A stretch of 64,000 nucleotides of DNA from Gammaproteobacteria bacterium (lineage in GTDB: Bacteria > Pseudomonadota > Gammaproteobacteria > Eutrophobiales > Eutrophobiaceae): NCBI GenBank assembly GCA_016193395.1, contig JACPSH010000047.1, positions 1 to 64,000 on the forward strand. Reading direction: 5' to 3'. The notes beneath the pieces are model-generated. The model did no database searches. It had not been told where the DNA came from and worked only from the letters and a program-made list of their open reading frames with translations. Made by a program: the position numbers and the translations under genes. This document shows, piece by piece, positions 14,581 through 34,894 of the stretch (its first letter is position 1; every line of letters starts with the position of its first letter).

Positions 14581-14762
14581 GTATCAACCGCGGAGCCGTC
14601 ACGGGCCTTGAACTTGAACCGAGGGTTCAAGTGGGAACAGCGGGCGATGCTTCAGGCTTCCCGGGAACCGGGCATGCACAACCACATCGCGGTTCAGTTC
14701 CCTCAGTGAGGAAATCAGGCTCAAGTAACACCGGCCCGAAAACGCACACCGCAGAAGATACC
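14581..14762 (-). ncRNA. ssrS: 6S RNA
   Basis: Minus strand resembles E. coli 6S RNA: GTGTGCGTTTTCGGGCCGG...TTGAGCCTGATTTC...GTGCATGCCCGGTTCCCGGGAAGCCTGAAG...CACTTGAACCCTCGGTTCAAG; closing stem GTATC/GATAC; immediately downstream of zapA. Confidence 0.85.
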
Positions 14763-23309: not shown

Positions 23310-23933
23310 TCAGGAGCGCCGCAGTTCCTCGCCGGCCCGGAAAACGGCAATGATCTTGTGCATGAATTTTATCTCCCTTTCCCTGATGCTTTTTCTGCTT
23401 CTGTTTCCCGAGACGTTCTCGACAATCACGCGGCCCTGATGTTTGTTGATGTAGGTGTGAATGCTCGGGGGTCCGGAACGCCGGTGAATTACCACTTCGT
23501 CACCGGCGAGCGGTTCTTCACCAGGATCGATCAGTATCGTCTCACCCGCGAACATGCGTGGTGAATACGCGTCATTCGTGATTGGCATCGCGTAACAGTT
23601 TCGCGCGGGCGTTGGAACACGCAGGAGGCGGGCCTGCCGCGATCCCCGCCCGGGGCCACTGTCACCGACGACGGGCACGAGGTGATCCCGTTTACCATAA
23701 TCCGCCGCCTGTTCCTGCACGGCATTGGAACCATTGTCATGCAGCAGCCACGCCGGGGCGACCTGCAGGGCCCGTGCGATTTCGGCAAGCTGCTTGAGCG
23801 ATGGCCGGCGTCTGCCGGACAGATAATGACCCACCGCGCCACGCGTGCATCCCAGTCTGTCGGCCAGGGCCTGATGGGAAATCCCACCGGCGCGCATCTG
23901 CGCCCGGGCCCGGTCAATCCAGGTCTCGTTCAT
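23310..23933 (-). CDS. CI-like XRE-family repressor with degenerate S24-like C-terminus
   Basis: HTH ISHQALADRLGCTRGAVGHYLSGRRRPSL; NDAYSPRMFAGETILIDPGEEPLAGDEVVIH resembles S24 but lacks the DSM serine. Confidence 0.85.
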   Translation of the reverse strand: MNETWIDRARAQMRAGGISHQALADRLGCTRGAVGHYLSGRRRPSLKQLAEIARALQVAPAWLLHDNGSNAVQEQAADYGKRDHLVPVVGDSGPGRGSRQARLLRVPTPARNCYAMPITNDAYSPRMFAGETILIDPGEEPLAGDEVVIHRRSGPPSIHTYINKHQGRVIVENVSGNRSRKSIREREIKFMHKIIAVFRAGEELRRS

Positions 23934-23942
23934 CGTCGAAAT

Positions 23943-23957
23943 GATACGCAGCGTATC
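23943..23957. promoter_or_regulatory. Operator palindrome O1
   Basis: GATACGCAGCGTATC between divergent CI-like and Cro-like genes. Confidence 0.8.
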
Positions 23958-23969
23958 GGATTGCGTGAC

Positions 23970-23984
23970 GATACATTATGTATC
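23970..23984. promoter_or_regulatory. Operator palindrome O2
   Basis: GATACATTATGTATC. Confidence 0.8.
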
Positions 23985-23989
23985 ATTAT

Positions 23990-24017
23990 TTGACAAGGTA
24001 GATACAGAACGTATCAT
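23990..24017 (+). promoter_or_regulatory. Sigma70-type rightward promoter of the Cro-like/GGDEF operon
   Basis: TTGACA (23990-23995), 16-bp spacer, TATCAT (24012-24017); overlaps operator O3. Confidence 0.7.
24001..24015. promoter_or_regulatory. Operator palindrome O3
   Basis: GATACAGAACGTATC, overlapping the -10 of the rightward promoter. Confidence 0.8.
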
Positions 24018-24041
24018 TTCGTCCAGTCACCGAGTGGTGTT

Positions 24042-24278
24042 TTGGATGACGTGCTGCTGCGTGAATTCATAGTCTCTTTCCCCAGAAGCAAGCGCGCCGA
24101 GGTCCGCCGGAAAATCGCGGAGGTGCATGGCGTATCGGAAGTCACCGTACGGGCATGGGCCAACGGCAACCGAAATCACCCCTATCGGTTATCTGCAATC
24201 CAGGCGACGGAGTCGTTGACCGGGGGGAAAGTCACACGGCATGACTTGAGGCCGGATATCTTCGGAGCCCGCGCTTGA
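24042..24278 (+). CDS. Cro-like/YdaS-like HTH regulator
   Basis: 78 aa; RRKIAEVHGVSEVTVRAWANGNRNHP HTH; TTG start; divergent from the CI-like gene. Confidence 0.65.
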   Translation: MDDVLLREFIVSFPRSKRAEVRRKIAEVHGVSEVTVRAWANGNRNHPYRLSAIQATESLTGGKVTRHDLRPDIFGARA

Positions 24279-25291
24279 AGCCGCGTGTGGCAAACCGCGG
24301 CTTGGGAACCGGCTCAACCCTTCGCCGCCCGAGCGATTTTCGTTCGATTGGCAATTCGGGTCAGACGTTGCAGTCCGGGCAGCACCGCCCTTCGGCGTGG
24401 CGCTCATGCGCGGGTGGGCAAGCCGGAATCACTGCCTTCTGTGCCGTGTACTGCGCAGCCATAAGTTTCTTCTCTCCTTATGCGGCCGCGGTGTCCCTGA
24501 TCCTGTGGCTCTACTGCAGGACCGGACAACCCACGGCTGGCTGCGCGATCCCGAGTCTGATGGTGAGCTACCTGTATCTCATTTATGCGTTTGCACGCAA
24601 GAATCCGGCCACTGCGTGGTTCGAGCTCTCGTTGCTCGCCGCGCTCAACGGCTTCGCGTTGCGCACCAGGCTGTCCTGCGATGCGTTGGCCGGCGCGCTC
24701 GCGCTGCGCAACGCGACACTGGAGAAGCTGGCAGCGATCGATGAATTGACGGCGCTGTACTGCAGGCGGCAGATCTTTGACCTTGGGCACAGGGAATTCA
24801 GCCGCTGCAGTCGCGGCGGCGAGCCGCTGTGCGTGCTGTTGCTGGATGTGGATCGTTTCAAGGATATCAACGACCGGCTCGGGCATGCGGGAGGCGACAG
24901 GACCCTGCAGAATCTCGGTGAAATCCTGCGCGACAGCCTGCGTACGCAGGATCTGGTCGGCCGTTACGGAGCAGACGTGTTTCTGGCGCTGTTGCCGGAT
25001 ACGGGACTGGCCGGAGCGGAATTAACGGCGGACCGGCTTCGCCGCGCTATCAATTCGCGTCCAATTATCCATGATTCCAGAAAGATCACTCTGACAGTCA
25101 GCATGGGTATTGCCGTCCTAGATTCGCAGATCGAAGACTTTCAGGGCCTGGTGCATCGAGCCGACGTCGCGCTCTATGAAGCAAAGCGTCGTGGAGGAGA
25201 TCAGTTCCGTTCCTGGTTCTCCCTCGATGATCACCGGAGCGCGCGGGATAGGCGCTTAGGGAACCTCCGAGCAAGTTCAGAGCTTCCTTAG
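24275..25291 (+). CDS. Membrane protein with degenerate GGDEF domain
   Basis: Hydrophobic N-terminal segments, DELTALYCRRQIF, DVDRFKDINDRLGHAGGD, RTQDLVGRYGADVF (GADVF for GGDEF), ADVALYEAKRRGGD; TTG start overlaps previous stop. Confidence 0.88.
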   Translation: MKPRVANRGLGTGSTLRRPSDFRSIGNSGQTLQSGQHRPSAWRSCAGGQAGITAFCAVYCAAISFFSPYAAAVSLILWLYCRTGQPTAGCAIPSLMVSYLYLIYAFARKNPATAWFELSLLAALNGFALRTRLSCDALAGALALRNATLEKLAAIDELTALYCRRQIFDLGHREFSRCSRGGEPLCVLLLDVDRFKDINDRLGHAGGDRTLQNLGEILRDSLRTQDLVGRYGADVFLALLPDTGLAGAELTADRLRRAINSRPIIHDSRKITLTVSMGIAVLDSQIEDFQGLVHRADVALYEAKRRGGDQFRSWFSLDDHRSARDRRLGNLRASSELP

Positions 25292-33412: not shown

Positions 33413-34894
33413 ATGAACCGAGCAAAACCGGCCAATCTCGAAAGCGTTCAATTCATGGCAAGACAGAGCACGCAGCCCTCCGCCACGGACGTCAAACGGC
33501 GCGGACTTCTGTTCGTCGACGACGACCCGTTGATCGTCGAGTCCTTGTCGGTCGCGCTCCAGTCGGAATACGAGATCCACACGGCCGAAGGCCGGAAACA
33601 GACGAAGGAATTGCTGCACCGGCTGGATGACAAACCCTCGCTGGCGCTGGTGGATCTCGGGTTGCCGCCGTATCCGCACAGCCCGGAGGAAGGATTCGAA
33701 CTCATCGACGAGCTGCTGGCGTTCAATCCGAACATGAAGATACTGGTGCTCTCCGGTCAGAGCGAACAGCCGAACATCCAGCACGCGCTCACCCTGGGCG
33801 CCGTCGATTTTATCCCCAAACCCTGCAACGTACCGCTGCTGCGCACGCGTCTGGCTCACCAGGCCATGATGCTTGACGCGGAGCAGGCGCAGGGCGGCGG
33901 CGAGACCAGCGGCGAGGGATTGCGCGGCGAAAGCCAGGCGGTCCAGGACCTGCTGGCCCTGATTCGCCAGTTCGCGGACAGTCCTTTCCCGATCCTGATC
34001 CAGGGCGAGTCCGGCAGCGGCAAGGAACTGGTTGCACGGTACCTCCACGAGTGGAGCCAGCGTGTCCGGGAGCCGTTCCTGTCCGTGAACTGCGCGGCGT
34101 TCCCCCGGGATCTGCTGGAGGCCCAGCTGTTCGGCTACGCCAAGGGCGCCTTCACGGGCGCGGTCCAGAATCGATCGGGTTTTTTCGAGGACGCCGGCGA
34201 CGGCAGCCTGTTCCTGGACGAGATCGGGGAGATGCCGCTCGACCTTCAGTCGAAGCTCCTGCGCGCGCTGGAGAATGGCGAGTTCTACCGCCTCGGCGAG
34301 ACGCAGGCGCGCACGTCGAGGGCGCGTATCATTGCCGCCACCAACCGCGACCTGCGCGGGGAAGTACGGCGCGGCGCGTTCCGGTCCGACCTCTACCATC
34401 GTCTTGGCGTACTCGCGATCCGCGTGCCGCCGTTGCGCGAGCGCGGACGTGACTGCCTGGCTCTGCTCGATCACTTCCGCGCGATGTATGCGGGCGACGG
34501 ACCGCAGTTCCGGCTGGATCCAGCCGCCGCGGAATTCCTGCTGAATTACGCCTTCCCGGGCAACGTGCGCGAACTGCGCAACATCGTGATCCGGCTCGGC
34601 GCGAAGTATCCGGGAAAGACGGTCAGCGTCGATCTGCTCGGCGGCGAAGTCGAGCTGGACCTGGTGACGTCGCTCGCGGAGCCCGCCGGTCCGGAGGATG
34701 CGGAGCTGGAAGGGGAATTGCGCGGCGGCAAGTTCCGGCTGGACGAGTACCTCGAGGGCTGGGAGCGGCGCTACATCGCCACGGCGCTGAAGTTGAGCGG
34801 TGGCAACCTGAGCAAGGCGGCGCGTCTGCTCGGCATCAACCGCACCACGCTCTACAGTCGGATGCAGCGGCTCTCCCTGCGCGGGCTGGAATAG
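33413..34894 (+). CDS. Sigma54-dependent response regulator (PrsR/NtrC-like)
   Basis: Receiver domain LLFVDDDPLIVESL...LALVDLGLPPYP, AAA+ GESGSGKELVARYLHE, GAFTGA loop intact, C-terminal Fis-type HTH GGNLSKAARLLGINRTTLYSRMQRL. Confidence 0.88.
   Translation: MNRAKPANLESVQFMARQSTQPSATDVKRRGLLFVDDDPLIVESLSVALQSEYEIHTAEGRKQTKELLHRLDDKPSLALVDLGLPPYPHSPEEGFELIDELLAFNPNMKILVLSGQSEQPNIQHALTLGAVDFIPKPCNVPLLRTRLAHQAMMLDAEQAQGGGETSGEGLRGESQAVQDLLALIRQFADSPFPILIQGESGSGKELVARYLHEWSQRVREPFLSVNCAAFPRDLLEAQLFGYAKGAFTGAVQNRSGFFEDAGDGSLFLDEIGEMPLDLQSKLLRALENGEFYRLGETQARTSRARIIAATNRDLRGEVRRGAFRSDLYHRLGVLAIRVPPLRERGRDCLALLDHFRAMYAGDGPQFRLDPAAAEFLLNYAFPGNVRELRNIVIRLGAKYPGKTVSVDLLGGEVELDLVTSLAEPAGPEDAELEGELRGGKFRLDEYLEGWERRYIATALKLSGGNLSKAARLLGINRTTLYSRMQRLSLRGLE

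Follow-up and report, generated by a model that had tools for sequence, protein, structure and literature searches.

A phage-type CI/Cro switch joined to a GGDEF protein gene in a gammaproteobacterial chromosome, and related loci in other lineages

Two divergent genes, encoding a CI-like repressor and a Cro-like protein of the YdaS family, were found with three palindromic operators between them and a gene for a membrane GGDEF protein directly behind the Cro-like gene, on contig JACPSH010000047.1 of a Gammaproteobacteria bacterium (the 64,000 nucleotides analysed are referred to below as the window). Since the same arrangement is present in several related bacteria, it looks like a virus switch that has been put to work by its host. 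We consider it probable, from the comparison of sequences, that the locus is a domesticated temperate-phage immunity switch turned chromosomal module, blind to RecA/SOS, which sets a c-di-GMP-related output. The preliminary description of this DNA had already proposed a domesticated lysogeny-type switch with such an output; its observation was confirmed and its interpretation partly supported, in that its outline stands and is here extended to a module that is conserved. To our knowledge, CI/Cro, the textbook bistable switch, is known almost solely from phages and mobile elements.

The repressor genes and their operators

The CI-like gene (23,310-23,933, minus strand) encodes a protein of 207 aa with an HTH_3 domain (Pfam, E = 3e-11) and a LexA/CI-type C-terminal domain, for which the Pfam match to Peptidase_S24 was weak (E = 0.003). 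In PHROGs the protein matched PHROG 4, transcriptional repressor (E = 8e-24), and a Foldseek search with its predicted structure gave the lambda repressor (3bdn) as best match, together with the CI C-terminal domain 1f39. The AlphaFold models were of middling quality (pLDDT 63 and 67) and were used for fold and helix layout only. The Cro-like gene (24,051-24,278, plus strand) encodes a member of the YdaS family (PF15943, E = 8e-9, 35.6 bits against a cut-off of 30), which also matched PHROG 35, repressor (E = 1e-9), and PDB entry 3bd1, 'Cro protein' (E = 6e-4). The Pfam, PHROGs, PDB and Foldseek matches thus bear out the divergent CI-like and Cro-like genes of the preliminary description. The TTG at 24,042, chosen there as the start of the Cro-like gene, is less likely than the GTG at 24,051, based on the alignment with relatives, whose Cro orthologues are 53-64% identical.

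The three 15-bp palindromes between the two genes lie exactly where they had been placed: operator 1 (GATACGCAGCGTATC) at 23,943-23,957, operator 2 (GATACATTATGTATC) at 23,970-23,984 and operator 3 (GATACAGAACGTATC) at 24,001-24,015, with centres 27 bp (1-2) and 31 bp (2-3) apart. All three are perfect in the window and were located by sequence, by a genome pattern scan and by the alignment of seven loci described below. The scan showed that they are the only perfect copies of GATACN5GTATC in the whole 2.7-Mb genome, in which a reversed control pattern had no match. Single-mismatch copies numbered 31, against 12 for the control, and were scattered in position. A genome-wide regulon under this operator was therefore rejected, and the switch is regarded as local.

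A promoter scan placed a promoter directed towards the Cro-like gene at 23,990-24,017 (plus strand), consisting of TTGACA (23,990-23,995), a 16-bp spacer and TATCAT (24,012-24,017); its -10 box overlaps operator 3, as the preliminary description had it. On the minus strand, a predicted -10 box of the CI promoter (TATCAT, 23,941-23,946) overlaps operator 1, with 7 bp between it and the CI ATG, because of which the CI mRNA is predicted to be leaderless. The -35 box of this promoter is poor in the window; several relatives have TTGNNN at a spacing of 16. The predicted CI start lies 44 bp downstream of the centre of operator 2, a distance near that between OR2 and PRM in phage lambda. Several shared operators that overlap both promoters, a trait of lambdoid switches, could be read from the sequence in all seven loci.

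Alignment with phage CIs showed that the catalytic Ser of the S24 peptidase domain is replaced by Ala (NDAY) in the window, and the catalytic Lys by His. The Ser is replaced (by A, D, E or R) in all seven chromosomal CIs and the Lys (by H, Y, Q, F or I) in all six that were aligned; the CI of locus L037 (genome G001) is partly masked, and the Ser site alone was checked there. Both residues are kept in the phage CIs L039 and L071-L075. The best match among named phages, the CI of PY54 (29% identity to CI), is also without the Ser, so loss of the Ser alone need not mark domestication. Without the Ser-Lys dyad, self-cleavage under RecA/SOS should not flip the switch between states, and the CI should be insensitive to this signal. 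A switch controlled by the SOS response was rejected, since the dyad is missing from the chromosomal CIs.

Related loci in chromosomes and phages

The block is surrounded in the window by genes of core metabolism, namely ubiH-type genes (ubiquinone hydroxylases), glnS, purC and a rhomboid gene, and fba, pyk, pgk and gap. Near the block no integrase, replication, structural, lysis or other phage gene was found in the window flanks, nor an attachment tRNA in the window. A prophage nearby, which had been named beforehand as evidence against a domesticated switch, was rejected on these grounds, and the Cro-like gene is indeed followed by the GGDEF gene rather than by phage genes. Two other features of the window were noted: next to a zapA-like gene, a 6S RNA (14,581-14,760, minus strand; Rfam RF00013, 76.9 bits), and a sigma-54 response regulator (33,413-34,894, plus strand) which resembles the PEP-CTERM/exosortase regulator (TIGR02915, E = 2e-99, below the family cut-off).

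The Cro alignment was searched against approximately 85,000 species genomes, and six further loci were obtained from five other lineages. L034 and L037 apparently belong to genomes G015 and G001, of the same family as the window; L033 is from a Kangiellaceae MAG and L036 from a Chromatiales MAG, while L032 and L035 are a near-identical pair, one of them titled Sedimenticola. At all six loci Cro and a CI-type gene diverge, and three operators are present. In the stretches read, no phage genes adjoin the block at any of the six, the flanking genes of L036 being mostly without assigned identity. The recurrence of CI, Cro and three operators of fixed geometry at these six loci gives good support to the proposed domesticated lysogeny-type switch.

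Within the family of the window, 3 of the 53 genomes carry the Cro gene (that of the window, G015 and G001). In G015 the pair occupies the same place, between the rhomboid gene and fba, on a contig that is syntenic with the window from glnS to tkt, and in G001 the block adjoins the same rhomboid gene; the switch is thus at a shared locus in three genera. Several other genomes of the family have the rhomboid gene and fba together and no CI/Cro match. A class-wide sample of 369 genomes yielded no further Cro orthologue, one Cro of prophage type (in G230) and no paired operators outside the genome of the window.

Operators 1 and 2 are spaced 27 bp apart at every one of the seven loci, and operators 2 and 3 are 30-32 bp apart (29 bp in L036). 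Apart from operator 3 of L036, no outer operator departs from the perfect palindrome; at five loci operator 2 departs from it by one or two bases. In the intergenic alignment of the seven loci, nearly all invariant columns fall in the operator arms and in the block AAATGATAC, which bridges operator 1 and the CI start and is itself invariant. In all seven, ATGATA (the CI -10 box on the opposite strand) reaches into operator 1, and 6-7 bp lie between its end and the CI ATG; a Cro-ward promoter of the form TTGAC-N16-TATC[AC]T, its -10 box overlapping operator 3, is present in five. The CIs of different loci are just 34-42% identical, yet the open frames, the three operators and their spacings have been kept.

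Cro-like relatives (about 40% identical) were also seen on Pseudomonas megaplasmids (L040, 5,995-6,267, and L041, 4,995-5,249). They lie directly before dotI/icmL-type conjugation genes, are divergent from another gene and have no GATAC operators, and were set aside as a different system.

The lysogeny-type layout was matched on a true phage contig, L077 (IMGVR_UViG_3300022741_000065), which has a CI, a YdaS-type Cro and the same operators at spacings of 27 and 32 bp. A CII gene (Phage_CP76, E = 5e-34) follows Cro in this phage, in the position held by the GGDEF gene in the window. L077 differs from the window in that its CI has no S24 domain and a phage primase-like gene is nearby. Most of the recognition-helix region (TRGAVGHYLSGRR) is common to the phage CIs L039 and L071-L075. 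In the CI tree the chromosomal CIs form one group (93/95; 94% of bootstraps), although the sampling of this tree is biased, since its phages were chosen by patterns drawn from the chromosomal CIs. Paired GATACN5GTATC operators were found in 117 viral stretches (IMG/VR contigs L078-L157) and represent a widespread class of phage operators; many of the stretches have a regular array, and some have an extra site approximately 240 or 470 bp away.

The GGDEF protein and other output genes

The GGDEF gene (24,275-25,291, plus strand; Pfam GGDEF, E = 8e-40) overlaps the stop of cro by 4 bp with its start (TTGA), so the stop/start coupling that had been described was seen. The N-terminus of the protein has several hydrophobic helices. 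Alignment with three other switch-linked GGDEF proteins showed a degenerate signature (RYGADVF), with the D-x-D, FKxxND and GHxxGD motifs intact. The I-site, RxxD, is also intact and lies five residues ahead of the signature (RTQD-LVGRY-GADVF). The GG[DE]EF motif of active diguanylate cyclases is lost in the window and intact in L033, L036 and L037. The earlier designation as a degenerate GGDEF protein thus holds for the signature, GADVF, but not for the remaining motifs and the I-site, and the degeneration is confined to the lineage of the window. Because the signature is partly lost but the I-site kept, the protein is more likely a binder of c-di-GMP (through the I-site) or of GTP than a maker of c-di-GMP, whereas, judged by their motifs, the GGDEF proteins of the relatives are probably diguanylate cyclases. 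The genome encodes 13 GGDEF and 3 PilZ proteins; c-di-GMP is therefore likely in use, with a network on which the output could act.

Four lineages have a GGDEF gene behind Cro, represented by the window (degenerate) and by L037, L033 and L036 (intact motifs), with a 20-bp overlap in L037, a 14-bp gap in L033 and a distance of about 290 bp in L036. In the Sedimenticola-type pair, Cro is followed by a gene for a lone receiver domain (L032, 2,563-3,247; L035, 2,653-3,009; Pfam Response_reg, E = 2e-24 in L035); this pair also has, convergent to CI, a multihaem-cytochrome-like gene. No output gene follows Cro in L034 (G015). Conservation of the coupling, to be expected under the preliminary description, was thus borne out in three other lineages and not in the remaining two, and a GGDEF gene is not obligatory. 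In a tree, the four switch-linked GGDEF domains were not recovered as one clade, yet a single clade was not rejected (p-AU 0.27).

Proposed mechanism and alternative explanations

The window resembles the OR region of phage lambda in the three operators that separate its divergent cI and cro genes, in a leaderless cI mRNA (predicted in the window) and in the modelled fold of CI, to which the lambda repressor is closest; the -10 boxes of the window overlap the outer operators. It differs from lambda in operator sequence and spacing (27 and 29-32 bp), in the YdaS type of its Cro, in a CI without the self-cleavage dyad, and in having no PL/OL, CII or lytic genes. Lambda CI activates its own gene from OR2. 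By the mechanism that we propose, CI bound at operator 3 would block access to the rightward -10 box, so that cro and the GGDEF gene stay off, and CI at operator 2, some 44 bp upstream of the predicted start, could activate its own leaderless mRNA. Cro, co-expressed with the GGDEF protein from the rightward promoter, would bind the same operators, turning CI off and, later, curbing its own expression. The expected outcome is that cells inherit one of two states that exclude each other, GGDEF-off under CI or GGDEF-on under Cro, with all-or-none expression of the membrane GGDEF protein as output. Flipping would have to come about by chance, with the growth phase or through a dedicated signal, since SOS self-cleavage should be unavailable.

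The PaaR2/YdaS pair of CP-933P in E. coli O157:H7, in which a CI analogue with a leaderless mRNA (PaaR2) faces a YdaS-type Cro across shared operators, has been shown by experiment to be bistable; its states are heritable, and in stationary phase it shifts towards the CI-like one (PMC8630535). Its YdaS was shown to be a Cro analogue, outside any toxin-antitoxin pair (PMC8630535). However, this region lies in a cryptic prophage with YdaT (a CII analogue) and replication genes, drives a toxin-antitoxin operon, and has GTTTAGTAA repeats as operators instead of GATACN5GTATC (PMC8630535); in the window the phage genes are gone and the output is the GGDEF protein. SetR of the SXT/R391 ICEs is likewise a leaderless CI-type repressor with a Cro-like partner and a non-phage use, but it is SOS-cleavable and controls conjugation (PMC4542580). 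Diguanylate cyclase genes are found on some of these ICEs as cargo; joining to the cro operon is not reported (PMC4542580). In the open-access literature we found no paper in which a diguanylate cyclase is linked to a CI/Cro pair of the chromosome.

The GGDEF protein itself might be the main actor, as a membrane sensor of c-di-GMP or GTP whose level is autoregulated by Cro and CI in a graded, not bistable, way. Known c-di-GMP receptors of the GGDEF type likewise combine an intact I-site motif and a degenerate active site, and the number of GGDEF and PilZ proteins in the genome agrees with this. We nevertheless regard it as rather unlikely, as two divergent repressors on three operators exceed the needs of graded autoregulation and the homologous CP-933P pair is bistable (PMC8630535). 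There is a smaller chance that the locus is an immunity remnant, with CI kept to repress incoming phages that have GATACN5GTATC operators and the GGDEF gene just sitting in an old early operon. Such operators are frequently found paired in viral contigs, and many of them form arrays of three to five sites; G015 keeps CI, Cro and the operators without an output gene. CI alone would suffice for immunity, yet Cro is the best conserved part, and GGDEF genes after Cro in four lineages, with a receiver gene in another, exceed what is expected of passengers.

Quite improbable is a decaying remnant of a recent prophage, with an accidental GGDEF coupling and no present function. The phage derivation is clear, the GGDEF signature of the window is partly lost and the distribution is patchy, but open frames, three operators and fixed spacings persist at the low CI identity given above, the locus is shared by three genera, and integrase, attachment tRNA and other phage genes were not found near the block in the window. 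A toxin-antitoxin type pair is very improbable, for although PF15943 is named 'Bacterial toxin YdaS', the YdaS of CP-933P is a Cro analogue (PMC8630535) and the operator geometry fits a lysogeny switch.

Beyond the domesticated switch itself, we put forward, as a tentative and on balance doubtful extension, that these loci are a family of SOS-blind CI/Cro switches serving as plug-in heritable two-state controllers for signalling genes (GGDEF in four lineages, a receiver domain in another). Such controllers might keep genetically identical cells in distinct states of c-di-GMP signalling; for the window, the output would by now be a c-di-GMP-binding protein, which may feed back on the switch. 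If true, a module of about 2 kb would show a viral decision circuit becoming a host decision circuit, and would offer a simple transcriptional cause for differences in c-di-GMP signalling from cell to cell.

As a separate observation, the same genome encodes a second degenerate GGDEF protein, with the signature RIGADQF (L205, G000:C40:6620-7087), within an open frame of 1014 codons.
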